NCBI RefSeq assembly: GCF_004360155.1
Contig: NZ_SAIS01000001.1
Coordinates: forward strand, 372,001 to 436,000
DNA: 64,000 nucleotides
Direction: 5' to 3'
Source of the DNA: Paraglaciecola marina
GTDB taxonomy: Bacteria > Pseudomonadota > Gammaproteobacteria > Enterobacterales > Alteromonadaceae
Below, piece after piece: positions 11,122 through 57,193 of the stretch (the first letter of the stretch is position 1; every line of letters begins with the position of its first letter). The notes beneath the pieces are model-generated. The model was not told the DNA's origin. It ran no database searches and was given only the letters and a program-made list of their open reading frames with translations. The position numbers and the translations under genes are program-made.

Positions 11122-13266
11122 ATGACTATAAGTAATGATACCAATGAAATAAAAAGTGCCTTCTCCCTAGATGTTCGCGATGATGGTGTGGCTATATTGA
11201 CAATGGATGTTCCAGGCGAAAGCATGAACACTCTGAAAGTCGAGTTTTCAGAGCAAATAGAAGACGTACTATCTCAAATTAATGCAGATAGCAGCATTAA
11301 AGGTGTAGTGTTAGTTAGTGGTAAAGATAACTCATTTGTAGCCGGAGCTGATATCAGTATGTTGGCCGCTTGTGAAAATGCGGAAGATGCGACAAGTATT
11401 GCTAAAGGCGGTCAACAAATGTTTGACCGTATTGAAGCTATGCCAGCTACTTTTGTCGCTGCTATCCATGGGCCTGCATTAGGAGGTGGTTTAGAATTGG
11501 CATTAGCCTGCCATTATCGAGTGTGTAGTGATGATGCGAAAACGCAACTTGGCTTACCTGAGGTGCAATTAGGCCTCCTTCCAGGAAGTGGTGGAACACA
11601 GCGATTACCGAGATTAATCAGCGTGCAACAAGCCATGAAAATGATGCTCACTGGTGGGTCTGCTCGAGCTAAACAAGCACTCAAATATGGCATAGTCGAT
11701 GATATGGTTCCTAAATCCATATTGCTTGATGTTGCCATCGAAATGGCTAAAAAACCTAAGCCCAAACGTAAAGGTCCTAAACTAGACGTTATGGGTAAGT
11801 TTTTAGAAAAGACTAATGTTGGTCGTAACATTATGTTTAAACAAGCTCGTAAACAAACCGCTGCTAAAACCCATGGGAATTACCCTTCTCCAGAACTGAT
11901 CATCGATTGTATTGAGACTGGGTTAAGTAGAGGCATGAAGAAGGGCCTTGAAGTAGAGGCATCGCATTTTGGTCAATTAGTAATGAGCCCTGAATCTGCT
12001 TCTTTGAGAAGTTTATTCTTTGCTACTACTGACATGAAGAAAGAGTCAGGCATTGAAGGTGTTAAACCTGAGGTTGTGAATAGAGTAGGGGTGTTAGGTG
12101 GTGGCTTGATGGGGGGAGGAATTGCCTTTGTTACTGCCAGCAAAGCTGGTATAGCTGTTAGAATTAAAGATATCCGTACCGACGGCATTGCTAACGCCAT
12201 TAAGTACAGCTATGACATTTTAAATAAGAAGTTTAAACGTCGATTTATTAAAAAGTCAGAAATGCAGAAACAATTGGCATTACTAACTGGAAGTGTTGAT
12301 TATACTGGGTTTAATGAAATTGATGTGGTGATCGAAGCCGTTTTTGAAGATCTAGAACTTAAGCAACAAATGGTCGCTGATGTAGAAGAAAACTGCTCAG
12401 AGAGTACTATATTTGCTTCTAATACATCCTCCATTCCTATTGGGCAGATTGCGGCCAAAGCTAAAAGACCGGAGAATGTAATAGGTTTACACTATTTTTC
12501 TCCTGTAGATAAAATGCCCCTCGCCGAAGTGATTGCCCACGATAAAACCTCAGACAAAACAATTTCGACTACTGTTGAATTAGCTAAAAAACAAGGTAAA
12601 ACTCCTATCGTTGTAAAAGACGGTGCAGGGTTCTATGTGAATCGTATTTTAGCGCCCTACATGAATGAAGCTGCGGAAGTTCTGCTAAGTGGTGAGCCCA
12701 TTGAACATATTGACAAATCATTAGTTAAATTCGGATTCCCAGTGGGGCCTATTAAGTTACTTGATGAAGTTGGAATAGATGTTGGTACAAAAATAGGGCC
12801 TATTTTAGAAGCCCAATTTGGTGATAGATTTGTATCAAATCCTGACTTTAATAAAATATTAACTGATGGCCGAAAAGGTAAGAAGAACGGCAGAGGCTTT
12901 TATGATTATTCAGGGAAAAGTACAGGTAAGAAAGTTGATAAGTCTTTGTATGATTTGTTAGGTATTACACCAACAATAAAACAAAGCCAAGAGCAAATTT
13001 CTGAGCGTTGTGTATTACTTATGTTGAATGAAGCTGCCATGTGTTTAGATGAAGGGGTCATTCGTAATGCAAGAGATGGCGATATTGGTGCAATCTTTGG
13101 GATTGGCTTCCCTCCTTTTTTAGGCGGACCATTCCGATATATGCATAGTTTAGGTTTAGAATATTTGGTTAATAGGCTTGAACATTATCAAAGTGTTTAT
13201 GGAGATAAGTATACTCCCGCGGCATGTTTGAAGCTTATGGTTGGTGAAAAACGTTCTTTTTACTAG
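11122..13266 (+). CDS. fadJ: Beta-oxidation multifunctional enzyme FadJ
   Basis: This alpha subunit of about 714 residues has an N-terminal enoyl-CoA hydratase/isomerase (crotonase) domain with the oxyanion loops S-F-V-A-G-A-D-I and H-G-P-A-L-G-G-G-L-E, and a 3-hydroxyacyl-CoA dehydrogenase domain from about residue 310, with a Rossmann start V-L-G-G-G-L-M-G-G-G and the catalytic H-Y-F-S-P motif. A GTG at 11113 is possible, but AGGGTG at 11110-11115 is correctly spaced for the ATG at 11122, which is chosen. It works with FadI. A good terminator follows at 13287. Confidence 0.95.
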   Translation: MTISNDTNEIKSAFSLDVRDDGVAILTMDVPGESMNTLKVEFSEQIEDVLSQINADSSIKGVVLVSGKDNSFVAGADISMLAACENAEDATSIAKGGQQMFDRIEAMPATFVAAIHGPALGGGLELALACHYRVCSDDAKTQLGLPEVQLGLLPGSGGTQRLPRLISVQQAMKMMLTGGSARAKQALKYGIVDDMVPKSILLDVAIEMAKKPKPKRKGPKLDVMGKFLEKTNVGRNIMFKQARKQTAAKTHGNYPSPELIIDCIETGLSRGMKKGLEVEASHFGQLVMSPESASLRSLFFATTDMKKESGIEGVKPEVVNRVGVLGGGLMGGGIAFVTASKAGIAVRIKDIRTDGIANAIKYSYDILNKKFKRRFIKKSEMQKQLALLTGSVDYTGFNEIDVVIEAVFEDLELKQQMVADVEENCSESTIFASNTSSIPIGQIAAKAKRPENVIGLHYFSPVDKMPLAEVIAHDKTSDKTISTTVELAKKQGKTPIVVKDGAGFYVNRILAPYMNEAAEVLLSGEPIEHIDKSLVKFGFPVGPIKLLDEVGIDVGTKIGPILEAQFGDRFVSNPDFNKILTDGRKGKKNGRGFYDYSGKSTGKKVDKSLYDLLGITPTIKQSQEQISERCVLLMLNEAAMCLDEGVIRNARDGDIGAIFGIGFPPFLGGPFRYMHSLGLEYLVNRLEHYQSVYGDKYTPAACLKLMVGEKRSFY

Positions 13267-36021: not shown

Positions 36022-36372
36022 GATGAATTTCAAAAAGGGGCAGAAGGAGAGTTTGACCTAATGTTATTATCGCCAAAAGCAGGCGGGGTAGGTTTAACGA
36101 TTACAGCGGCTAATCATGTTATTCATCTAACCCGATGGTGGAACCCAGCTGTTGAAGACCAAAGCACTGACAGGGCATTTAGAATAGGACAAAACAAACC
36201 TGTCTATGTCTATATCCCTATTGCCATCCACCCTAAGTATGGTGATAGCTCTTTTGATGCAAACTTGCATAGGCTATTAACAAAAAAGCGTAGTTTAAGT
36301 ATTAATGCCCTATTACCAGGCACTGTCACAGACTCCGAATTCAATGATTTATATACCCAAACGATGACCTAA
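36022..36372 (+). pseudogene. C-terminal fragment of a SNF2-family helicase
   Basis: The sequence encodes the last ~115 residues of a SWI2/SNF2 ATPase: [16 protein letters not shown] (motif V), then [20 protein letters not shown] (motif VI), plus a family tail with [14 protein letters not shown] stop at 36019-36021 precedes it in frame and the ATPase lobe is missing, so it cannot be active. SNF2 proteins with this tail often occur in defence loci. The intact end lies 13 bp before hsdM, implying that recombination at this locus replaced the rest. Confidence 0.8.
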
Positions 36373-36385
36373 GATTACAAACTAA

Positions 36386-37867
36386 ATGACAACTGAAAAA
36401 ATAACCCTCTCCCAGTTAGAGCAATACCTATCAAAAGCAGCATGGATCTTAAAAGGTCCTGTAGATGCTTCTGACTTTAAAGTTTACATATTCCCGCTAC
36501 TTTTCTTTAAGCGAATATCAGATGTATACGATGAAGAATACCGGGTAGCACTAAAAGAATCAGACGGCGATGAAGAATATGCTGCGTTGCCAGAGATGCA
36601 CCGATTTGAAATTCCTGATGATTGTCACTGGCAAAATGTGCGCGAAACGACCACGAATGTGGGTCAAGCAATAGAAAATGCATTACGAGGCATAGAGCAA
36701 ACTAACCAAGAATACTTATATGGAATCTTCGGTGATGCCCAATGGAGCAACAAAAATAAGCTTTCAGATGCATTACTGATAAACCTTATCGAGCATTTTT
36801 CACAGTACACATTAGGTAATCAAAACGTTGATCCAGACATGCTGGGTAATGCTTACGAATACCTGATTAAGCATTTTGCCGATTTAACCAATAAAAAAGC
36901 AGGTGAGTTTTACACGCCTCGTTCGGTGGTGCATTTACTTGGTATGATTTTAGATCCACATGAAGGTGAAACTATTTACGATCCGGCTTGCGGTACGGGC
37001 GGTATGTTGCTTGAGTGTGTTGACCACCTTAAAGACAACAAAGAAGATTACCGAACACTCAAATTATACGGCCAAGAAAAAAACCTAACGTCTAGCTCAA
37101 TTGCTCGTATGAACATGTTCTTACACGGTATTGAAGACTTCGAAATCTTACGTGGCGATACCTTACGTCACCCAGCATTTTTTGAAGCGGATGGTCTTAA
37201 AACCTTTGATTGCGTCATAGCAAACCCGCCATTTTCACTAAAAGACTGGGGCGCTGAAAACTGGGCTAATGATCCATACGGTAGAAACATAGCCGGAGTG
37301 CCACCAAAAGGTAATGGAGATATGGCTTGGGTGCAACACATGGTTAAATCTATGAACAGCACTGGCCGTATGACTGTTGTATTACCACATGGCGCATTAT
37401 TCAGGAAAGCAGCCGAAGGTAAAATTCGTAAACAGTTACTTGAGCAAGACATGCTTGAAGCCGTTATCGGTTTGGGGCCAAACGTGTTTTACGGCACGCA
37501 ATTAGCAGCCTGTGTCATGGTGTTTAAGCAAAACAAACCGGCCGATAAGAAAGGTAAAGTGTTGTTTATTGATGCCTCTTATCAAATTAGAGTAGGTCGA
37601 GCACAAAACTTCCTTGAGCCTAACCACGTTCAGCAAATTTACGACTGGTATCACAACTACCAAGATGTAGAAAACTACGTCAAAGTAGCTTCAATGGACG
37701 AGTTAAAAGAAAATGACTTTAATTTAAACATTCCGCTATATGTTGAAAAAATAATTGAAGATAACCTGCCATCAGTAGAAGAAGCGATGAGCGATTTAAA
37801 ACAAGCATGGCAAGCAAGCCTTGAAGCTGAAGAGAAATTTAAGAAAGTACTAAAGGGATTTTTATAA
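36386..37867 (+). CDS. hsdM: Type I restriction-modification methyltransferase subunit, first copy
   Basis: The 493-residue N6-adenine methyltransferase has the HsdM N-terminal helical domain (L-L-F-F-K-R-I-S-D-V-Y-D-E-E), G-E-F-Y-T-P-R, SAM motif I D-P-A-C-G-T-G-G (about 200-207) and catalytic motif IV N-P-P-F (about 281-284). All are intact. It is the first gene of a seven-gene rightward operon. No clear ribosome binding site precedes the ATG. A paralogue (39175) with the same architecture but N-P-P-Y follows one gene later; a single HsdS must serve both or they must divide the work. Confidence 0.93.
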   Translation: MTTEKITLSQLEQYLSKAAWILKGPVDASDFKVYIFPLLFFKRISDVYDEEYRVALKESDGDEEYAALPEMHRFEIPDDCHWQNVRETTTNVGQAIENALRGIEQTNQEYLYGIFGDAQWSNKNKLSDALLINLIEHFSQYTLGNQNVDPDMLGNAYEYLIKHFADLTNKKAGEFYTPRSVVHLLGMILDPHEGETIYDPACGTGGMLLECVDHLKDNKEDYRTLKLYGQEKNLTSSSIARMNMFLHGIEDFEILRGDTLRHPAFFEADGLKTFDCVIANPPFSLKDWGAENWANDPYGRNIAGVPPKGNGDMAWVQHMVKSMNSTGRMTVVLPHGALFRKAAEGKIRKQLLEQDMLEAVIGLGPNVFYGTQLAACVMVFKQNKPADKKGKVLFIDASYQIRVGRAQNFLEPNHVQQIYDWYHNYQDVENYVKVASMDELKENDFNLNIPLYVEKIIEDNLPSVEEAMSDLKQAWQASLEAEEKFKKVLKGFL

Positions 37868-39178
37868 TTGAATAAGCACCTTAATATCTTTACAACTTAC
37901 GCGAAAGATAACCGAAGTTACCAACTAGAAAATGATCTAACCCGCTCTTTAGCGATTTGCTTACAAGAAGATGCTTTGTTTTTTCATGAAGTGCTTAAAT
38001 CTATTTTTAGTGATTCTGACTTGTTTAATCAATTATTTGAAGACCTTGATGGCGAGACTAGCGTGCAAGTCGAAATACAAAAGCAGGCAAGTCAAATTGC
38101 AGAGTTTGAGAAAATTTATGCGGTTACATTGAGTGAAGCTGCAATGTCCAACTTCTGGGAGCAAACCGATCATACAGAGTACGATCCCATTTGTGATTTA
38201 GTGATAACAGTGAATAATGTATTGATTGTGATTGAAGCTAAACGAGACAATATTGATTGTACTGCACAGCTATACAATCAAGTGTTCAATATATTTAAAA
38301 AACAGAGTAAGAAAATAAGTGATTACAAAGATGATATAACGCCATTTGACCTTAATTGGAAAAAGCTAATGTTGATTGCCGTTAAAGTCGCAAGCTTTGA
38401 AAGAACTACAAATAACAGAAACCGATTTCTTACTGACTTTATCCAGCTCGTAAAGAGCCACAACTTCAGTTGGCTACCTGAAACTCCTATCGGCTCACTA
38501 CACAATGAGAATACTGAATCTATAGAGAGAAGAATTGAATCTGCTCTTACTCAATTCTGTAATGATGATGAAACTGTAGATAAATTAACTTATAGCGACA
38601 GGTTAGGTACTACCTTTTCAAAAGGTTGGTCAAATGAGCTCCTATTTGAAATCGAGCCAAAATCTGGTGATTTAGTGGTTGATATATACCCTGGAAATAC
38701 TAAAGGTCAGGGCTACCATATTTTCCCTAGTGACTCTCAGTTCAATAATTCACTATTAATTGATGGTGAAACTTATTCGGCAAATAAACACTATCACATC
38801 AAATTCATGGGGCAGTCATACATAGCCGGACTTTGGTTAACCGATGAAGACTTTAATAAAACACTTTTTACTAAAGATAATTTTTATAACCATACAGGCA
38901 GAATAAAAAGAGAATCTTGGGGGGCGATCGAAAGCTTACTAAATCAACATTTAAGTTCCGACTGGAAAGGTCAGTGTCACTGGCAAGATAAAATTCTTAA
39001 TTCTAATAGAACACAGTTCAATCTTTCTTTTGGTTATCATATTTCAATTACTATCCCTTTTATAAAATTGACGGAACTAGATAAAAATCATAACGATATT
39101 AAACCATTGTCAAATTTGATGGAAAGCATTTATAGAGCCTTCGAAACCAGATTAATTACAGAGAAACCATCAACATGA
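37868..39178 (+). CDS. PD-(D/E)XK nuclease-like protein embedded in the hsd operon
   Basis: The 436-residue protein probably begins with TTG at 37868, right after the hsdM stop; AAGGGA lies about 10 nt upstream and no ATG is available in the first 90 codons. The motif D110-(12)-E123-A-K125, with Q134 and Q138 following in A-Q-L-Y-N-Q, and an upstream glutamate in E-N-D-L-T-R (E21), is the PD-(D/E)XK nuclease arrangement. The rest (about 150-436) is beta-rich and not recognised. Its stop overlaps the second hsdM start. HsdR already has its own nuclease domain, so this may be a second effector or an accessory nuclease. Confidence 0.7.
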   Translation: MNKHLNIFTTYAKDNRSYQLENDLTRSLAICLQEDALFFHEVLKSIFSDSDLFNQLFEDLDGETSVQVEIQKQASQIAEFEKIYAVTLSEAAMSNFWEQTDHTEYDPICDLVITVNNVLIVIEAKRDNIDCTAQLYNQVFNIFKKQSKKISDYKDDITPFDLNWKKLMLIAVKVASFERTTNNRNRFLTDFIQLVKSHNFSWLPETPIGSLHNENTESIERRIESALTQFCNDDETVDKLTYSDRLGTTFSKGWSNELLFEIEPKSGDLVVDIYPGNTKGQGYHIFPSDSQFNNSLLIDGETYSANKHYHIKFMGQSYIAGLWLTDEDFNKTLFTKDNFYNHTGRIKRESWGAIESLLNQHLSSDWKGQCHWQDKILNSNRTQFNLSFGYHISITIPFIKLTELDKNHNDIKPLSNLMESIYRAFETRLITEKPST

Positions 39179-40638
39179 TGACCCAACAAGATTTAGAGAA
39201 ATACCTTTGGGGTGCGGCTACAGCGCTCAGAGGCACCATTGATGCGGGTGATTACAAGCAGTACATTTTTCCACTTTTGTTTTTTAAACGTATCTCTGAT
39301 GTTTACGATGAAGAATTCAACAATGCCTTAGCAGAAAGTGATGGTGATTTAGAATATGCCGCCTTTGCTGAAAACCACCATTTTCAAGTACCTGATGGTG
39401 CCCACTGGAAAGATGTACGTGAAACCACGACCAACATTGGTCTAGCGCTGCAAAACGCCATGCGTGAAATTGAAAAGGCTAATCCTGATACTCTCGAAGG
39501 TATTTTTGGTGACGCCAGTTGGACCAATAAAGACCGTCTTTCTGATGCCATGCTCACCAACTTAATTGAGCATTATTCACAGCACACCCTTGATTTAAAA
39601 AATGTACCTGACGATAAGCTTGGCAATGCTTACGAGTACTTAATTAAAGAGTTTGCTGACGATAGCGGTCATACAGCTGCAGAGTTTTACACCAACCGTA
39701 CCGTAGTTAAATTAATGACCATGATAATGGACCCACAACCTGGTGAGTCAGTTTACGACCCCACATGTGGCTCAGGAGGTTTATTACTTAACTGTGCCTT
39801 ACACCTTAAAGATGAGGGCAAAGAATACCGCACCCTTAAGTTATACGGCCAAGAGATTAACCTATTAACCTCAGCCATTGCCCGTATGAACATGTTTATG
39901 CATGGTATTGAAGAGTTCGACATTGTGCGTGGTAATACCTTAAGTAATCCAGGCTTGCTTGAAAATGATGAGCTGAAAAAATTCAATGTAATTTTAGCTA
40001 ACCCACCATATTCAATAAAATCTTGGGATCGCAAAGCCTTTGAAAGTGATCCGTATGGCCGAAACGTATGGGGTACACCTCCACAAGGTTGTGCTGATTA
40101 TGCCTTTCAGCAACATATTCAAAAGAGCCTTGATTTAGGTAATGGTCGTTCCATTTCATTATGGCCACACGGTATTTTGTTCCGTGATGCCGAAACAGAA
40201 ATGCGTAAAAAAATGATTGAGCAAGACCAAGTTGAATGCGTCATTGGTCTTGGACCAAACCTGTTTTATAACTCGCCTATGGAAGCATGTTTGTTAATTA
40301 CTAAAACAAACAAAGCAGAAAGTAAAAAAGGCAAAGTGCTGATCATAAATGCCGTGAAAGAAGTGAGGCAAGACAAAAACATCGCCTACCTAGAGCAGAT
40401 CCATATTAAGCGTATTTACAATGCTTATCAAAATTATGCTGATGAAGATGGTTTTAGCAAAGTCGTTACCACAGACGAAGTACTAAAACATAAAGCCAGT
40501 TTAAATATGGCACTTTATGTCAGTAATGTTGATAGCAGTAAAGTACAAATATCATTAGATGAGGCACTCGCTAATTGGCAAACATCATCAGAGCAGTTAT
40601 CAAACAGCATGGATCAGTTATTTAAGGAATTAGGTTAA
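39175..40638 (+). CDS. hsdM: Type I restriction-modification methyltransferase subunit, second copy
   Basis: The 487-residue HsdM is colinear with the one at 36386 but clearly diverged. It has L-L-F-F-K-R-I-S-D-V-Y-D-E-E, A-E-F-Y-T-N-R (instead of E-F-Y-T-P-R), motif I D-P-T-C-G-S-G-G and motif IV N-P-P-Y (about 277-280). The active site is intact. The start, ATG 39175 or 39178, overlaps the stop of the nuclease-like gene, and hsdS begins immediately after its stop codon. This copy is directly beside hsdS and is the more likely standard partner. Confidence 0.93.
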   Translation: MMTQQDLEKYLWGAATALRGTIDAGDYKQYIFPLLFFKRISDVYDEEFNNALAESDGDLEYAAFAENHHFQVPDGAHWKDVRETTTNIGLALQNAMREIEKANPDTLEGIFGDASWTNKDRLSDAMLTNLIEHYSQHTLDLKNVPDDKLGNAYEYLIKEFADDSGHTAAEFYTNRTVVKLMTMIMDPQPGESVYDPTCGSGGLLLNCALHLKDEGKEYRTLKLYGQEINLLTSAIARMNMFMHGIEEFDIVRGNTLSNPGLLENDELKKFNVILANPPYSIKSWDRKAFESDPYGRNVWGTPPQGCADYAFQQHIQKSLDLGNGRSISLWPHGILFRDAETEMRKKMIEQDQVECVIGLGPNLFYNSPMEACLLITKTNKAESKKGKVLIINAVKEVRQDKNIAYLEQIHIKRIYNAYQNYADEDGFSKVVTTDEVLKHKASLNMALYVSNVDSSKVQISLDEALANWQTSSEQLSNSMDQLFKELG

Positions 40639-41790
40639 ATGACAGACGTTAAAACAGATTTAAGCTCTTTTGATTCGAGATTGGACCTAAAAAATTTGGA
40701 TAAATCCAATTGGAAAACTTACCGTTTTGATGAAATTGCCAAAAACATTTCAGAGCGTGTTGATCCAAACAATACCGATTTAAAAGTATATATTGGCCTT
40801 GAACATATTGATTCTGAATCCTTGCATATCAAGCGTCATGGTACGCCTGATGACGTTAATGGCACCAAGTTAAAATTCTACAAAGGCGATATCATCTTTG
40901 GCCGTCGTCGTGCTTATCAGCGTAAAGCAGGTATAGCTACTTGGGACGGTTTTTGTTCAGCCCATGCTTTGGTGCTTAGGGCTAACCCTGATGTGATAGA
41001 CCCAGAGTTATTCCCATTTTTCTTACACTCTGATTTGTTCATGAATCGGGCGATTGATATTTCAGTAGGCTCTTTGTCACCGACTATTAACTGGGGTACT
41101 TTAAAGCATCAGGAGTTTTTAATTCCACCTAAAGATATTCAATCGAGATTTTCTGAGTTATTTAATTCGATTGATAGCCTGATAGAAGCCGATGTGGATT
41201 TACTTTCACAAACTAGAATTACTAAAGGAATTGATTTTGAATCACTTGTCTCATCAACAAGTGGTGAATTGGTACCACTATCTAAAATTTTAAAGCAAAA
41301 GAAAGGCAAAAGTCCTGCTCCTCACAAAAGGTCAAAATATATTGGATTAGAGCATATTAAGTCAGGGGCCTATTCTTGCTCTGAATTTGGCGACTCTAAT
41401 GATGCCCAAGCGCAGTGTAATTTAGTCGATAAAGGCGATTTATGTTACAGCAAACTAAGACCTTATTTAGACAAAGCTTTCATCGCTGATTTTGAAGCAG
41501 TTTCAACTACAGAGTTATTGATATACGAAACAACCTTAGCTTCTAAATCATATGTTTTACACCATCTACATAGTAAACCTTTTATTAATTATGTTACCGG
41601 TAAAGGCTTCGGTACAAAAATGCCTAGGGTAAATCATAAGATAATTGGTGAATACAACATTAAAGTGTTGAATGAAGAAAGAACTGTTCTAGATAAAATG
41701 GCGCTATATGCAAATATAGAAAAGTCGGCACTTATCAAAATAGGTCAAAACAAATGCCTCCAAAAAAGTTTAAACAATAAGGTGTTTTAG
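40639..41790 (+). CDS. hsdS: Type I restriction-modification specificity subunit
   Basis: The 383-residue HsdS has two target recognition domains. The first covers about residues 20-165 (Y-I-G-L-E-H-I-D-S-E-S and the later S-P-T-I-N-W-G motif), the second about 210-370 (Y-I-G-L-E-H-I-K-S-G-A-Y), separated and followed by helical spacers (S-I-D-S-L-I-E-A-D-V-D-L-L). The second spacer is short, and the total length is below the common 400-450, but both domains look complete. The recognition sequence cannot be read from this. It starts directly after the hsdM stop. Confidence 0.92.
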   Translation: MTDVKTDLSSFDSRLDLKNLDKSNWKTYRFDEIAKNISERVDPNNTDLKVYIGLEHIDSESLHIKRHGTPDDVNGTKLKFYKGDIIFGRRRAYQRKAGIATWDGFCSAHALVLRANPDVIDPELFPFFLHSDLFMNRAIDISVGSLSPTINWGTLKHQEFLIPPKDIQSRFSELFNSIDSLIEADVDLLSQTRITKGIDFESLVSSTSGELVPLSKILKQKKGKSPAPHKRSKYIGLEHIKSGAYSCSEFGDSNDAQAQCNLVDKGDLCYSKLRPYLDKAFIADFEAVSTTELLIYETTLASKSYVLHHLHSKPFINYVTGKGFGTKMPRVNHKIIGEYNIKVLNEERTVLDKMALYANIEKSALIKIGQNKCLQKSLNNKVF

Positions 41791-41792
41791 GT

Positions 41793-44774
41793 ATGGGATT
41801 TACCGAATTAAATAGTGTGGAACACTACATCATCCATCAAATGACGGGTGTTAATTTAAACGTCTCTCATAGTCAGAATGAAGTTTCAGAACCAAAGCCA
41901 AAAACGTTTGGAGTGCAATGGCAATTTCAATCACCAGAGCAACTAGGCAGGGGTGTTAACGAGGTTTTAGTTGAATCTTTTTTGGTTAAAGCATTAATTC
42001 GCCTTAACCCTGAGATTGAAGCTAACCCCAATTTGGCTGATGAAGTAATACATAAGCTCCGTGCTATTTTAATTTCGGTAAATCAAGTTGGGCTAGTTAA
42101 AGCCAATGAAGAGTTTTTCGCTTGGATGACAGGTGAAAAGACCATGCCTTTTGGCGAAAACAATCGCCATGTACCCGTAAACCTAATCGACTTTGACGAC
42201 TTAACGCGTAACGACTATGTGGTAACAAATCAGTTCCGTATTCATCACAGAGAAACCAAAATACCGGATGTGGTATTAATGATTAACGGTATTCCAGTAG
42301 TAGTGGGTGAAGCAAAAACACCTATTCGCCCCTCGGTAAGTTGGTTAGACGGTGCTCATGAAGTACACAGCATTTACGAAAACGCTGTACCGCAATTGTT
42401 CGTACCTAATATTTTGTCGTTTGCTACCGAAGGAAAAGAGCTTTTCTATGGTGCTATTAGATGCCCATTAGAATTCTGGGCTCCTTGGCGTACTGAGAAC
42501 AAAGACAGTCAATTATCCAAAGCATTAGGATTGGCCGAAATTGGTAAAGAGTTAACCGACCTGTTAAGCCCTGAACGCTTGCTTGATATCTTGCGCAACT
42601 TCTCATTGTTTACCACTAACAATAAAAAACAACGCATTAAAGTAATACCTCGATTTCAACAGTATGAAGGTGCAAACAAAATAATTCAGCGAGTTATCGA
42701 CGGTAGAATCAAAAAAGGACTAATTTGGCACTTTCAAGGCTCAGGTAAATCACTATTAATGGTATTTGCCGCGCAAAAACTTAGGCGTGCAACACAGCTT
42801 AAAAGCCCAACTGTAATTGTACTGGTTGATAGAACCGATTTAGATACGCAAATTAGCGGTACCTTTAATGCCGCTGATGTAGCCAACGTTGAATCAACCG
42901 ATAGCATTAAAGAATTACAACGAATGCTTGAGCATGATACCCGTAAGATCATTATCTCAATGATCCACAAGTTCCGTGATGCCAAACCTAATATGAATGA
43001 TAGAGAAAACATCATTGTATTAGTGGATGAAGCGCATCGCACCCAAGAAGGCGATTTAGCCCGACAAATGCGTGCCGCTTTACCTAATGCCTTTTTATTT
43101 GGTTTAACTGGTACGCCCGTAAACAAAGCGGATAAAAATACCTTCTGGGCATTTGGTGCCGAACAAGATAAAGGCGGCTATATGTCGCGTTATACCTTCC
43201 ATGACTCTATTCGTGACGAAGCCACATTGCCACTGCACTTTGAACCTCGATTAGTGGATGTGCATGTTGACACCCAAGCCATTGATCAAGCCTTTGCTGA
43301 ATTTAAACAAAGCGCAGCATTAAGTGATGAAGAAGCTGATGAGTTAAATAAAAAGTCAGCCAAAATGTCAGCGTTTTTAAAGTCCCCTGATCGTGTTGCC
43401 AAAATAGTTAAAGACCTATCAGAGCACTTTACCAGTAAAGTAGCGCCACAAGGCTTTAAGGGCATGATAGTTACGCCAGATAGACATGCTTGTGTGCAAT
43501 ACAAAGAAGAGCTAGATAACTACTTCCCAATCGAGGCCAGTAAAGTGGTTATTTCAACCACGGCAAATGATGAGTTTGAATTTAAGCAAAAGTGGGGCGT
43601 TGATAAAAGCCAACAAGAAAAGATTGTTGATGAGTTTAACGATGCTAAATCTGAGCTTAAGTTTATTATTGTTACCGCTAAGTTATTAACCGGTTTTGAT
43701 GCACCGATTTGCCAAACCATGTATTTAGACAAATCGTTAAAAGACCATACCTTGTTACAGGCAATATGTCGTACTAACCGTTTATATCCGCAAAAAACAT
43801 TCGGCTGTATTGTTGATTACTTTGGTGTATTTGACGATGCAGCAAAAGCATTAGAGTTTGATGAAGAAAGTGTTAAGCAAGTTATTAGTAATTTAGGCGA
43901 ATTACGTTCTCGTTTACCCCAAGCCATGGCTGATGCGTTAAAACACTTTGAAGGTGTAGATAAAACACTTGATGGTTTTGAAGGCTTAGAAGCTGCACAG
44001 AATGCTATTAGCACTGATGATAAAAAAGATGCCTTTGCTAAAGACTTTAAGTATTTATCAAAATTATGGGAATCATTATCGCCAGATAATATTTTAGATC
44101 CATACAACCAAGACTATAAATGGTTAGCGCAAGTTTTTGAGTCGGTAAAGCCTGCTTCAGACAACGTAGGTAAAATGTTGTGGTTAGCCCTTGGTGCGCA
44201 AACCACACAATTGATCCACGAGAACATTCATGTAGGTGAAGTGCATACCCTTGATGAGTTTGTATTGGATGCCGATGTGATTGAAAACATCTTCAATAAT
44301 CCAGATCCCAAAAAGATTAAACAACTTGAAAAAGACTTAATTCAACGCTTTAAAAAGCACGGTGGTAATGCTGAATTTAAAAAGCTCAGTAAACGCTTAG
44401 AAGAGCTTCGAGAGAAAGCCGAGAAGGGGTTAATTACCTCAATTGAATTCGTTAAAGAGCTTTGTGGAATCGCCAAAGATACGGTTTCAGCCGAAAAAGA
44501 CTTACAGCAAGAAGTACAAGAAAAGTCACCTAAAGCGGCACTAACAGATTTGTTTTTAGAACTGAAGAACGATGAAACTCCAGCGGTTGTAGAACGTATC
44601 GTTACTGATATTGACGCCATTGTTCGCATTGTAAACTTCCCTGGTTGGCAAAATACCACAGGCGGCGAACGCGAAGTGCAAAAGTCATTACGCAAAGCAT
44701 TACTCAAATACAAATTACATAAAGACCAAGTGCTGTTTGATAGGGCATATGGGTATATTAAAGAATATTATTAA
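41793..44774 (+). CDS. hsdR: Type I restriction endonuclease subunit HsdR
   Basis: The 993-residue protein has an N-terminal PD-(D/E)XK nuclease with P-D-V-V-L-M-I-N-G-I-P-V-V-V-G-E-A-K (near 160-175), then SF2 translocase motifs: Walker A H-F-Q-G-S-G-K-S-L near 316, D-E-A-H near 412, G-L-T-G-T-P near 432 and a second RecA lobe with L-L-T-G-F-D-A-P and Q-A-I-C-R-T-N-R. The C-terminal part is helical and binds the M2S core. Length and motifs are normal and uninterrupted, so restriction is probably functional. It follows hsdS by 2 bp. Confidence 0.95.
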   Translation: MGFTELNSVEHYIIHQMTGVNLNVSHSQNEVSEPKPKTFGVQWQFQSPEQLGRGVNEVLVESFLVKALIRLNPEIEANPNLADEVIHKLRAILISVNQVGLVKANEEFFAWMTGEKTMPFGENNRHVPVNLIDFDDLTRNDYVVTNQFRIHHRETKIPDVVLMINGIPVVVGEAKTPIRPSVSWLDGAHEVHSIYENAVPQLFVPNILSFATEGKELFYGAIRCPLEFWAPWRTENKDSQLSKALGLAEIGKELTDLLSPERLLDILRNFSLFTTNNKKQRIKVIPRFQQYEGANKIIQRVIDGRIKKGLIWHFQGSGKSLLMVFAAQKLRRATQLKSPTVIVLVDRTDLDTQISGTFNAADVANVESTDSIKELQRMLEHDTRKIIISMIHKFRDAKPNMNDRENIIVLVDEAHRTQEGDLARQMRAALPNAFLFGLTGTPVNKADKNTFWAFGAEQDKGGYMSRYTFHDSIRDEATLPLHFEPRLVDVHVDTQAIDQAFAEFKQSAALSDEEADELNKKSAKMSAFLKSPDRVAKIVKDLSEHFTSKVAPQGFKGMIVTPDRHACVQYKEELDNYFPIEASKVVISTTANDEFEFKQKWGVDKSQQEKIVDEFNDAKSELKFIIVTAKLLTGFDAPICQTMYLDKSLKDHTLLQAICRTNRLYPQKTFGCIVDYFGVFDDAAKALEFDEESVKQVISNLGELRSRLPQAMADALKHFEGVDKTLDGFEGLEAAQNAISTDDKKDAFAKDFKYLSKLWESLSPDNILDPYNQDYKWLAQVFESVKPASDNVGKMLWLALGAQTTQLIHENIHVGEVHTLDEFVLDADVIENIFNNPDPKKIKQLEKDLIQRFKKHGGNAEFKKLSKRLEELREKAEKGLITSIEFVKELCGIAKDTVSAEKDLQQEVQEKSPKAALTDLFLELKNDETPAVVERIVTDIDAIVRIVNFPGWQNTTGGEREVQKSLRKALLKYKLHKDQVLFDRAYGYIKEYY

Positions 44775-44795
44775 GATGTTATATCTAAAAGGACA

Positions 44796-46586
44796 ATGAT
44801 GAATCAGATTGAATCCAAGGGCCTATTTTCAAACGAAGATATTGAGTTGGCTTGGGAAAGAGTTTGCTCAAGTGTCGGTAGTGACGTTAAAGATTACTTC
44901 GGCATTAATGTGTTTGACAGCAATATATCACTGCACCTGAGAACGACATTTGATGAACTAGAAAGTAATAGTTATAGCCCAACTAGGCCGTTTAAATACT
45001 ATGAACCCAAAAAGTGTGGCACCCAAAGAACTAAAACAGTTCTTGGTATAAAGGATGCGATTGTTTATCAAGCTATCGCGGACAAAATCGGGACTGAGCT
45101 ATATCAAAAGTTAGCTAAAAATAAAGATTTTGTTTTTGGAAGCGTGTTAAATGAAAATGTAAGCAAAGGGGTCGATATTCTTGATGAAGATGAACCTGAT
45201 TTTTATTTTTTTGAATATTATGTAAATTTATACAATCGATTTGTAGAAGGTATTAGTGAGACATTAACCTCTGGAGAGGTTCAATATAAACTAGAAACTG
45301 ATATAACAGGTTTTTTCGACTGTATTCCCCATGCGACTCTACTCCTTAAATTACACTCTTATGGAATCGAAAAAGAATTATTAGATTTATTATCTTATTG
45401 CCTCAATTCATGGTCCGGTACTCGAGACAACGTCACTTTAAATGTGGGCATACCTCAAGGTCCTCCAGCATCATTTTTATTAGCTAATATATTGTTGGAT
45501 GAGTTAGATGAAATCATAATTGGCCTAGATCTAAAGTATTTTAGGTTTATGGATGATATCCGAGTTTATGCGCCAACTAGAGAAAAATTGCTAGATATAC
45601 TAGTTATTATTGATAGAAATCTAAAAGGTCATTCATTGAGCTTAAATGCTAGTAAAACGGAAATAAAAATCGTTGAGGCCGGAGATAATGAAGAAGAACT
45701 AATGCTTGATGGTTCAGGGATATCATTTGATGAAGAGCTATTCGAACAGAGTGATTTTTATAGTCAGGATAGCGAATATGAATTTGACGTTTATGGACAG
45801 AATGAAGAATATCAAGACCATTTTTATGGCCAGAATAGCGAGGCCGAAGACGAACGAAAAGCTGAAATTGTCCAGATAGAAATTGAGCAACGAGCAGAAG
45901 ATGAGCTTGTGGTTCAGGATGAAACACAGCTTAAAAACACTAATAAATCCGTGGTAAATAGTTCAAAAATATCATTGTTTTTATTGAAAGACACGGAATC
46001 TAATTTGTTAGAGTTATTTGAATCGAATAAAGATATAGACGTAAGTGAAGCTTTGCCAAATGATACTGTCAGAAGATTTTTAACGTTATCTCAGCGATGG
46101 AGAAGCTTGGTCACATCTCTTAAAGGTAGCGGTAATTATACCCCTGATTTAAACCTAGTTAAAGTATGGTTTTGGGGAGTGGTAAAAATTTACTGGAAGA
46201 CTAACTCAATGGCTTGGAACCTAAATCTTTATGAAAGCTTGGAAGGCTACTCAGAGGAATATGAGCAAACATTATCAAAACTAAGGCGCTTTGAATGGGT
46301 GACATATCAATTGCTTAATGTTTTTTATAAGGTTTACCCTAATGATTTACAAAGACATTTAAAGGTAAGTGAAGAATTAACTTCTGAGAGTAGTCCTTTA
46401 ATTCGCTTAGGGTTTTATAGTGTGTTAATAGAATCAATAAAGGAAGATTCGAGCTTATTTGACATTTATAGCAAAGCATTGGCAAATGAAAGTGATAATT
46501 ATGTAAAAGAAGCAATATTAAGTTCCATTCATTATAAAAACACTCAAGTATCAATTCAGACATTAAAAGAGTGGTTCTTAAAATGA
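44796..46586 (+). CDS. Abi/UG-type reverse transcriptase with helical C-terminal region
   Basis: The 596-residue protein contains a complete RT core: motif A T-D-I-T-G-F-F-D-C-I (D169), motif B G-I-P-Q-G-P-P-A-S-F-L-L-A-N (218-231), motif C F-M-D-D (D253, D254; F in place of the usual Y) and motif D N-A-S-K-T-E-I. Residues about 300-375 are an acidic low-complexity insert with three 11-residue repeats, and about 385-596 is alpha-helical and HEAT-like. It lacks group II intron maturase features, and only 21 bp separate it from hsdR, leaving no room for a retron ncRNA. AAAGGACA precedes the start (44796 or 44799). Its stop overlaps the HEPN gene by ATGA. This arrangement resembles AbiA-type phage-abortive RTs. 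Confidence 0.85.
   Translation: MMNQIESKGLFSNEDIELAWERVCSSVGSDVKDYFGINVFDSNISLHLRTTFDELESNSYSPTRPFKYYEPKKCGTQRTKTVLGIKDAIVYQAIADKIGTELYQKLAKNKDFVFGSVLNENVSKGVDILDEDEPDFYFFEYYVNLYNRFVEGISETLTSGEVQYKLETDITGFFDCIPHATLLLKLHSYGIEKELLDLLSYCLNSWSGTRDNVTLNVGIPQGPPASFLLANILLDELDEIIIGLDLKYFRFMDDIRVYAPTREKLLDILVIIDRNLKGHSLSLNASKTEIKIVEAGDNEEELMLDGSGISFDEELFEQSDFYSQDSEYEFDVYGQNEEYQDHFYGQNSEAEDERKAEIVQIEIEQRAEDELVVQDETQLKNTNKSVVNSSKISLFLLKDTESNLLELFESNKDIDVSEALPNDTVRRFLTLSQRWRSLVTSLKGSGNYTPDLNLVKVWFWGVVKIYWKTNSMAWNLNLYESLEGYSEEYEQTLSKLRRFEWVTYQLLNVFYKVYPNDLQRHLKVSEELTSESSPLIRLGFYSVLIESIKEDSSLFDIYSKALANESDNYVKEAILSSIHYKNTQVSIQTLKEWFLK
45759..45857 (+). repeat. Three tandem 33-bp units encoding 11-residue repeats inside the RT
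   Basis: Residues 322-354 of the RT read as YSQDSEYEFDV, then YGQNEEYQDHF, then YGQNSEAEDER. The shared pattern is Y-[SG]-Q-[DN]-x-E-[YA]. At DNA level the units are diverged but recognisable (for example TATGGACAGAATGAAGAA and TATGGCCAGAATAGCGAG). They lie between the RT palm/fingers and the helical C-terminal region. Confidence 0.75.
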
Positions 46587-47221
46587 GTTACTTAGATACT
46601 ATTATTGAGTCTAAAGCGACTATAGAAGCTAGTTCAGATGTGCCTACAAATCAAAAACTCTTGTTGATAGAGCTAATAGAAGAAAAACGCATACAGATTG
46701 AAGCTAAAGCAGACACTTTTCATTATTTATATTCTGATATTGTGTCAAGTTCTGATATTTTTGATTACAAAGCTCAATTGGATGGGTTTTATCCTGCTGC
46801 ACAGGAGCATGCTGGTTGTTGTGTAGATATTTTTGTGAGTTTCTCTAAGTTAACTCCAACAGTGGAGCTTCAAAACTGGCTATCTAGTGCTATTAGAATG
46901 GTTAATTGTATTGTTACTCATTATCTGCAAGAAGTACTCAATGTGGAACCTGAAAAACAGGGTGATTATGGGATGGAACGCTCTAGATATAAGCAAGTAG
47001 AGAGGCTCAACGTAAAAGCCAGTAAAGCAGGTCGAATAATGTTTAACCTTTATGGTGAAAGAAATACTATGGAACATCAAATAAAAACCGACCCAAATGA
47101 CACAGGCAAAAAAATTTTTGTTCCGCCAAATTATAAACGCACACTTAAACAAATAAATAAAAGGTTACCAGAAGCATTAATTAATTTTGATGAGGCTTAT
47201 AAAAACCATTATTCAAATTAA
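46583..47221 (+). CDS. HEPN-domain protein, candidate RNase effector of the RT
   Basis: The 212-residue, mainly alpha-helical protein carries R160-N-T-M-E-H165, a canonical HEPN R-x4-H catalytic motif with the polar residue directly after Arg, in the expected place near the end of a helical bundle. HEPN proteins are typically RNases in abortive infection and toxin systems. The frame opens at a GTG at 46571, but the ATG at 46583 forms an ATGA overlap with the RT stop, so translational coupling favours it. In AbiA the HEPN domain is fused to the RT; here it is a separate gene. The role as effector is inferred from motif and coupling. Confidence 0.65.
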   Translation: MSYLDTIIESKATIEASSDVPTNQKLLLIELIEEKRIQIEAKADTFHYLYSDIVSSSDIFDYKAQLDGFYPAAQEHAGCCVDIFVSFSKLTPTVELQNWLSSAIRMVNCIVTHYLQEVLNVEPEKQGDYGMERSRYKQVERLNVKASKAGRIMFNLYGERNTMEHQIKTDPNDTGKKIFVPPNYKRTLKQINKRLPEALINFDEAYKNHYSN

Positions 47222-48678: not shown

Positions 48679-48954
48679 CTATACCAAGCGGATTTCTATC
48701 TTTTTACCTAAAGCAGACGCAAAACGTTCAAGTGTGGATAGCTTTACATCATCTGAATGGTTTTCAATTCTGGATATCGCACTCTTTTGAGTGTGTAGCA
48801 TTTCGGCTAGTGCTTGTTGGGTAATGCCAGATTCTTTTCTAGCCGTTTTAAGCATGATGCCAAATTTTAAATTTTGGTAACCTTCATCATATCCTTCGGC
48901 AAAATCCTTATCATCGGCTTTGCGTTTGGATACGTACTTTTTTAGATCGCTCAT
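48679..48954 (-). CDS. higA: XRE-family antitoxin (HigA-like)
   Basis: The 91-residue protein has a Cro/C1-type helix-turn-helix at about residues 30-85 ([19 protein letters not shown] and later S-A-I-S-R-I-E-N). Its start overlaps the toxin stop by ATGA, the toxin-first order typical of higBA. Such antitoxins bind and neutralise the toxin and repress the shared promoter upstream of it (about 49302-49400). Confidence 0.88.
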
Positions 48955-49301
48955 TGTTTTTTCCTCTGTAGATAATCTCTACGTCTTTGTTCTGCGAGTT
49001 TGATATCTTTGGCAGGCGTTTTTTGTGTTTTCTTTTGAAAACCATGGTTAAGTACCACTAAGTTATCACCATCGAAAAAGCCTAATAATCTAAAAATATT
49101 ATTGCCCACTTGCGCTCTTACTTCCCAAATGTCTTGGGTATTAACCAGCTTCTTTAAATAAGTAGTAGGAATAACATCTAGCTCTTCAACCAATTGTAAT
49201 ACCCAAGTTATTTTTTGAGCTTGCTTTGCTGTTAATGAATCTAAGAACTCAACAACAGGTGTTTTACCTTCTTGTGTTGTATAAAAATTAATAGTTTTCA
49301 T
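48951..49301 (-). CDS. higB: RelE/HigB-family toxin (phage Gp49-like)
   Basis: The product of about 116 residues fits the Gp49-like HigB group: V-V-E-F-L-D-S-L near the start, [26 protein letters not shown], and the basic C-terminal [16 protein letters not shown] with R-R-R-D-Y. These toxins are ribosome-dependent mRNA interferases. The frame is open to 49319, but homologues start close to M-K-T-I-N-F, so ATG 49301 is chosen. It is translationally coupled to the antitoxin. Confidence 0.88.
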
Positions 49302-49319
49302 CTCAATGTTAACATCCAT

Positions 49320-56834: not shown

Positions 56835-57193
56835 TGGTGGAGCTGGCGGGAGTTGAACCCGCGTCCAGAAGACGTCAACCGTCGGTACTACATGTTTAGT
56901 TTGTCTTTTATTTAACTACGTGGAACTCCGACAAACAGGATTTCGTTGCAGCTGGCCTAATACTGTTTCGCGGTTCACCCTTAGACAAGGTTCCCTCGCT
57001 ATCCTGCTGGGATGACCTTCCGAACCTCTACTAGCAGAAAGAGTATGAGTGGAAGGGCTTAGCCGGTTATTAAGCGGCTAGAGCGTAGTTTTCGTCGTTT
57101 GCGACTATTTAAATGCGGCTTTTTACGAGGCAAACCGCTCCTCGACATGCACCTAAAGCGTCTAGAATCCTGTCGAATCCAAAATCAGCCCCC
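56835..57193 (-). ncRNA. ssrA: Transfer-messenger RNA (tmRNA)
   Basis: The 359-nt RNA rescues stalled ribosomes with SmpB. Its 5' end reads GGGGGCTGATT, then GGATTCGACAGG, and its 3' end is a tRNA-like arm with GGGTTCAACTCCCGCCAGCT ending in CCACCA; the two ends pair as the acceptor stem. The tag frame resumes at GCA (57102) and encodes ANDENYALAA followed by two TAA stops (57067-57072), the same tag as in E. coli. The CCA is encoded. A terminator follows. Confidence 0.97.

Follow-up and report, generated by a model that had tools for sequence, protein, structure and literature searches.

A PacII-type restriction-modification operon of Paraglaciecola marina as a putative chassis for a UG19 reverse transcriptase-HEPN pair and a predicted nuclease

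Background

Do seven closely packed defence genes make up one defence system, or do several systems share one operon? This question is raised by positions 36386-47221 of the window, i.e. the whole 64,000-nucleotide stretch of DNA analysed here (positions 372,001 to 436,000 of contig NZ_SAIS01000001.1 of Paraglaciecola marina), in which hsdM1, gene X, hsdM2, hsdS, hsdR, a reverse transcriptase (RT) gene and a HEPN-like gene follow one another. The initial annotation read them as a single layered system, with DNA restriction acting first and an RT/HEPN suicide response as back-up. In our opinion, with a probability of about 0.6, the locus is a type I restriction-modification (RM) operon of the m6A/m4C kind (N6-methyladenine/N4-methylcytosine; subunits M1, M2, S and R) plus two separately acquired defence cassettes. 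The sequence comparisons described below suggest that M1M2SR serves as a modular chassis, in which one set of defence genes can take the place of another, and that the RT-HEPN pair and X are autonomous.

The description of the locus itself was borne out. All seven genes are intact, lie on the plus strand and are tightly packed, with gaps of 0-21 bp or short overlaps (in operon order 0, -4, 0, 2, 21 and -16 bp), and the sequence evidence agrees with their identification as hsdM, PD-(D/E)XK-type, hsdM, hsdS, hsdR, RT and HEPN-like genes. No terminator-like site was seen between them. This lack, together with gaps of -4 to 21 bp, speaks against the view, which we regard as improbable, that X and RT-HEPN are mere defence-island neighbours standing beside hsd by chance, with their own promoters and no common role.

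The restriction core

The genes hsdM1 (36386..37867, +) and hsdM2 (39175..40638, +) encode type I methyltransferase subunits that are 54% identical. Both are intact and carry different motif pairs (AGEF172 and NPPF280 in M1, AAEF168 and NPPY276 in M2), and are not mere duplicates; M1 is predicted to generate m6A and M2 to generate m4C. Such motif pairs have been reported for m6A/m4C type I systems (PMC9613975, in the part available to us), and the best solved-structure match of hsdM1 was the M1 subunit of PacII (7vru_A, 3.1e-170). The operon has one hsdS (40639..41790, +), encoding the specificity subunit, with two stretches matched by PADLOC, and one hsdR (41793..44774, +), encoding the restriction/translocation subunit, in which the PD...EAK, GSGKS and DEAH motifs are present; the motifs of both are intact. 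On these sequence features, hsdM1-M2-S-R is a non-canonical m6A/m4C (PacII-type) type I RM system, the rarer kind, with its methylation predicted. The first report of such PacII-type systems is said to be that of Morgan et al. in 2016. At a bipartite site, the R2M1M2S complex would mark one strand with m6A and the opposite strand with m4C, whereas incoming DNA lacking these marks would be cut.

With PacII-type RM the operon shares the distinct M1 (AGEF/NPPF) and M2 (AAEF/NPPY) subunits and the single S and R; it differs in two additions, a gene with the PD-(D/E)XK motif that separates M1 from M2, and RT-HEPN following R. The word “operon” is never used in the main text of the PacII paper, in which Ocr and ArdA were tested as inhibitors of PacII (PMC9613975).

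Exchange of genes around the core

The closest M1M2SR relative found (G1189, an order-level genome; M1 94% identical) has the order M1 - GmrSD_N - M2 - S - R - (N6_Mtase + AAA protein), and X, RT and HEPN gave no match within the 34.9 kb fetched. Blastn blocks of 80-82% nucleotide identity cover window positions 36383-37874, 39175-40287 and 41776-44774: the first starts 3 bp 5' of hsdM1 and reaches 7 bp beyond the stop codon of this gene, the second begins at the hsdM2 start, and the third extends through the last hsdR base. At these gene edges, X is replaced by GmrSD_N, and RT-HEPN by N6_Mtase + AAA, with gene precision. The sequences of hsdS and of the hsdM2 end also diverge, as expected near specificity domains. 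The two loci thus form a natural pair, alike in M1, M2 and R and different in cargo and specificity subunit, in which the effect of cargo could be tested on a near-identical restriction core. The exchange of modules at gene boundaries, with M1, M2 and R remaining alike, may be a concrete route for the assembly of layered phage defence.

The distribution of hsdM1 was surveyed in 369 genomes of the class, 395 of the phylum of G406 and 99 of the order. Among these, M1 proteins at least 70% identical to that of the window occurred only in G000 and G406 (both preselected) and in G1189, with more in viral contigs, where five hsdM1 loci were detected. Two plasmid records matched, both below 60%, and no match was found among phages. 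In Escherichia coli, 17 of 5,426 genomes matched, with 27% of the DNA query covered; the three loci that were read have M1 54-55% identical to ours, with AGEF/NPPF and AAEF/NPPY present. Of the 22 M1 loci retrieved independently of RT (L054-L069, G1189, L080-L084), 19 have a second hsdM; NPPF is paired with NPPY in 19/19, and AAEF was matched in 17/19 (not in L058 and L068). The L061 contig yielded no second hsdM, although it extends 3.8 kb beyond M1.

Extra genes lie inside the M1..R order in 12 of the 18 RT-independent loci in which M1, M2 and S were read (L055, L057, L059, L060, L062, L063, L066, L067, G1189, L080, L082 and L084), the loci without them being L054, L058, L068 and the three from E. 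coli. Removal of near-copies (L060/L062, 97%; L080/L082, 100%; the three E. coli loci, 98-99% in M1) leaves 10 of 14. This count omits L056, L061, L064, L065, L069, L081 and L083, in which M1, M2 and S were not all read; the S-R interval is not visible in L058 and L068, so that their lack of cargo is provisional, and R is not visible in L080. The cargo comprises GmrSD_N, AAA + subtilase, DUF4062-HATPase_c_4, AAA_13 (presumably of the PrrC/RloC kind), YhcG, Shedu, GNAT + AAA_17, an AlbA_2 protein and proteins lacking a Pfam match. The relatives found through RT carry TmtA + a superfamily 1 (SF1)-type helicase (L070/L011, L018), GmrSD_N (L021) and, after R, McrBC (L018).

The idea of one fixed system fails on these data. 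None of the 25 RT-independent M1M2 loci (L054-L069, the closest relative G1189, L080-L084 and the three from E. coli) showed X, RT or HEPN at E 1e-3 as far as they can be read, several of these loci ending early.

The RT-HEPN pair

The RT gene (44796..46586, +) belongs to class UG19 (PADLOC PDLC03756, 2.7e-137), with the FMDD active site at residue 251, and the HEPN-like gene (46571..47221, +) is the catalogued UG19 partner RTas1465 (PADLOC, 3.4e-102), so that the window matches both models of this defence-associated RT pair of PADLOC-DB. The first codon of the HEPN reading frame is a GTG within the RT gene, but 29/29 aligned sequences share a Met at codon 5, and the probable start is therefore the ATG at 46583, which overlaps the RT stop as ATGA. 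Our literature search found no functional paper on UG19, the class being named once, in an RT-classification paper. The genes that surround the UG19 RT and its partner in this locus suggest at what stage the two act.

An RT alignment scan of an 84,980-species genome collection gave 33 loci. L035 (30% over 118 residues, no RT match at E 1e-8) and L027 (neighbourhood the same as that of L026) were dropped, which left 31. The HEPN partner lies 3' of RT in 28/28 readable relatives; some partners are too distant for phmmer and were assigned by position, length and alignment. The neighbours were labelled with 26 query proteins at E 1e-8, and by PADLOC/Pfam scans of chosen neighbours. Type I hsd genes were found near the RT in five loci (L007, L011, L018, L021 and L029), whereas 26 of 31 have none in the stretch available, and the proposal of one layered system does not survive this result. 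As judged from gene content, RT-HEPN is a unit of its own, separate from the hsd genes.

The co-occurrence of RT/HEPN with hsd genes that the initial annotation had expected held in part: hsd genes adjoin only 5/31 loci, but HsdM_N genes lie within the available stretch in 6/31 against 0.23 expected from random placement, with coordinates hand-matched to L007, L009, L011, L018, L021 and L029, defence islands not controlled for, and L027 in and L031 out of this set of 31. Some modification system adjoins the RT in 10/31 loci, a count uncontrolled for ordinary defence-island clustering; the further systems are BREX (L004, L012), IIG-like (L010, L020) and type II (L009). A lone 408-amino-acid IIG-like piece more than 3 kb upstream in L030 stands outside the 10/31.

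A TmtA gene, which we take to be the one that goes by the name “Tiamat”, occurs near the RT in 11/31 loci (L009, L010, L011, L014, L018, L023, L026, L029, L031, L033 and L034), in several directly after HEPN; PADLOC confirmed ten of these, and L034 was assigned from phmmer alone. Two of the UG19-linked TmtA proteins match Pfam SACS. Human sacsin has Hsp90-like modules joined to a HEPN domain (PMC3710099, available in part), and with these SACS matches the pairing of TmtA with RT-HEPN may be informative. Neither a modification system nor TmtA nor an IIG piece of the L030 type was seen in 14/31 loci.

What the HEPN protein does is a separate matter. It has 216 amino acids and no Pfam domain at E 0.01; its closest structures are mostly HEPN toxins, nine of the top 12 being titled HEPN or toxin-antitoxin. 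The motif in the window is RNTMEH (R-x4-H), and across the alignment R is retained in 26/29 sequences and H in 29/29. In the HEPN partners of L018, L020 and L021 (each 11716-12363), R is gone and H is kept, and these proteins may be non-catalytic. In AbiA, whose RT is joined to HEPN in one protein, the HEPN domain is reported to be enzymatically inactive despite its R-x6-H; it mediates dimerisation and is required by the polymerase, and AbiA may act otherwise than by cell death (PMC11077055, as far as accessible); an “RT/HEPN suicide” is therefore not to be assumed. The window resembles AbiA in combining RT with HEPN, and the AbiA-CTD family has been listed in an operon with RM (PMC3710099, in part), but AbiA is a single fused protein, and here there are two genes with an RT of another class.

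These data allow the tentative reading that HEPN is a structural partner for RT activity, as in AbiA, and no toxin RNase, so that the unit would make DNA. The missing catalytic R in three sequences agrees with it; its retention in the other 26, the toxin-like structural matches and the encoding of HEPN by a separate gene point the other way, and we hold it to be possible at rather long odds. It can hold together with the modular reading, with functional coupling to restriction or with mere neighbourhood.

Possible repeated joining of RT-HEPN and M1M2SR

The window and its relatives L011, L018 and L021 belong to one narrow M1M2SR lineage (the M1 proteins of the relatives are 78-84% identical to that of the window, and hsdR of L011 is 71% identical), yet the RTs of these three relatives are merely 37-40% identical to the window RT. 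In the RT tree, one clade of the window, L011, L018 and L021 was rejected (approximately unbiased (AU) test, p 6.7e-57), as was a clade of the window and L011 alone (p 1.8e-11). The tree has 29 rows (the window and 28 relatives, L017, L027, L032, L034 and L035 being left out), with long-branch warnings that include L011 and L007. The position of RT-HEPN also varies: it stands after hsdR in the window, between M1 and M2 in L011, and divergent from M1 in L018 and L021. The presence of RTs that are not one clade beside one M1M2SR lineage suggests repeated joining, and at least two to three separate events are suggested by the sequences. L011, L018 and L021 were found via RT, so their RT carriage is uninformative on how frequently M1M2SR carries an RT; the result for the 25 RT-independent loci counts against repeated joining, as do the modification label, which is no more clustered on the RT tree than chance, and the long-branch warnings.

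The restriction partner also varies beside one RT lineage. The RTs of L018, L020 and L021 are 89-97% identical, and their divergent neighbour is M1M2S in two of them and SNF2 + IIG in the third. A small gene right after hsdS (L018 5069-5629, L021 3245-3808) is 83% identical between these two loci and has no Pfam match.

The idea of mere neighbours draws support from several of these results. The closest readable RT relative (Vibrio, 66%) has no hsd nearby; the modification label changes five times on the RT tree versus 4.5 when shuffled, i.e. it is no more clustered than chance; and the RT-independent M1M2 loci showed no X, RT or HEPN. It is opposed by the non-clade RTs beside one narrow M1M2SR lineage, and by the rarity of M1 proteins of at least 70% identity across the genomes searched, when such proteins at 78-84% are adjacent in 3/31 UG19 loci.

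A PrrC-like coupled system is unlikely in our view. In such a system, the restriction complex would silence RT-HEPN, and anti-restriction or exhaustion would free it, stopping the cell. A back-up role for HEPN has been proposed for many of the neighbourhoods that it shares with RM, PrrC-PrrI serving as the model example; the same source lists AbiA-CTD as fused to an RT and as sharing an operon with RM (PMC3710099). The modification systems beside UG19 in 10/31 loci and the non-clade RTs beside one M1M2SR lineage fit as well. The coupling is opposed by the 26/31 UG19 relatives lacking a nearby type I hsd, with BREX, type IIG, type II or TmtA as other partners, by the divergent orientation of RT-HEPN in L018 and L021, which places it outside the operon, by the 0/25 result, and by the lost R in L018, L020 and L021. 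The suicide back-up triggered by restriction that was initially proposed is possible by analogy with PrrC and the HEPN-RM neighbourhood proposal (PMC3710099, in part).

It is more doubtful still that one m6A/m4C type I lineage recruited UG19 pairs from separate RT clades because M1M2SR supplies a needed signal or DNA. The signal would come via M1M2SR assembly, translocation or cleavage products, and three RT-HEPN positions would have been used; if this were true, restriction and RT-based immunity would be mechanistically coupled. The 0/25 result lowers the weight of recruitment and of coupling, and raises that of mere neighbours.

Gene X and the modular reading

Gene X (37868..39178, +; 436 amino acids, TTG start) has a PD-(D/E)XK-type triad (D110, E123, K125), which is invariant in 40/40 aligned sequences. 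No Pfam family was matched, and X is likely a nuclease, as predicted from the triad. The slot between M1 and M2 is filled by other genes in several relatives. Two X homologues (each ~55% identical) have no hsd genes nearby: one lies on a Vibrio plasmid beside a HIRAN-domain gene (L072, 12001-13299), the other in an order-level genome (L074, 9001-10296). They suggest that X is able to stand alone, again contrary to one fixed system. Taken with the hsd-free RT-HEPN loci, the sequences suggest that X and RT-HEPN work without hsd.

In the modular reading, X would be a DNA nuclease directed at DNA that escapes restriction; the analogy is with GmrSD, whose gene stands at the corresponding position in the closest relative. 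RT-HEPN would form an independent UG19 system of two genes, its RT making DNA and holding or freeing the HEPN protein; from the families involved, it would act as a later, self-contained layer in infection. One operon would provide shared expression and shared transfer, and the restriction complex need not trigger RT-HEPN.

Several points weigh against this reading. The whole-protein model of X (mean predicted local distance difference test (pLDDT) score 87.8) gave no convincing structural match, and the catalytic R of R-x4-H is lost in 3/29 HEPN sequences. Across the 25 RT-independent M1M2 loci, identity to the window M1 is mostly no higher than 54-63%; four distinct loci reach at least 70% (G1189, L083, L080/81/82 and L084), of which L083 ends within M1. 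That RTs of separate clades accompany a single narrow restriction lineage points to a possible functional link, which modularity alone would not require. The guanine-plus-cytosine (GC) content of X, RT and HEPN is 0.34, versus 0.39-0.41 for M1, M2 and R, but that of hsdS is also low (0.358), so that GC by itself cannot tell cargo from core.

Comparison with known systems

The embedding of second defences in type I operons has already been published; this composition appears to be a new form of it. TgvAB is a second defence module in the type I operon of V. cholerae VPI-2 (PMC11411939, in part). The window likewise has a second, presumably independent module within a type I RM operon, and the nearest M1M2SR relative also holds a GmrSD_N gene inside; the difference lies in the cargo, RT-HEPN and X, and in an RM of the m6A/m4C type. 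A type I RM system of enteropathogenic E. coli (EPEC) similarly encloses a module of the toxin type, DarTG2, in an operon that also counts seven open reading frames; that locus has DarTG2 + an M48 peptidase, not RT-HEPN + X, and has the regulator RptR (PMC12255303, in the portion available). In the window, X stands between M1 and M2, and RT-HEPN follows R, not between hsd genes.

PrrC-PrrI is similar in having a HEPN gene in an hsd operon as a proposed second line (PMC3710099, in part), here in a tight same-strand array. In PrrC, HEPN is fused to an ABC-ATPase and linked to the RM system that it accompanies; the HEPN of the window is separate and RT-paired, and this fusion was not found in it. 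In mainly open literature, we found no paper describing a UG19 RT-HEPN with an m6A/m4C operon, or M1M2SR as a cargo chassis.

Flanking genes

A 5'-truncated ZorD/SNF2 helicase remnant (36022..36372, +; PADLOC 4.5e-59), of which the C-terminal end is preserved, lies outside the system and stops 13 bp 5' of hsdM1. It probably derives from a defence gene that formerly stood here, and fits the view of mere island neighbours. On the other side of the operon there is a Gp49-like (DUF891) gene (48951-49319, -), presumably kin of HigB-type toxins. The transfer-messenger RNA (tmRNA) gene (56835-57192, -; tag ANDENYALAA) lies ~9.6 kb from the operon.

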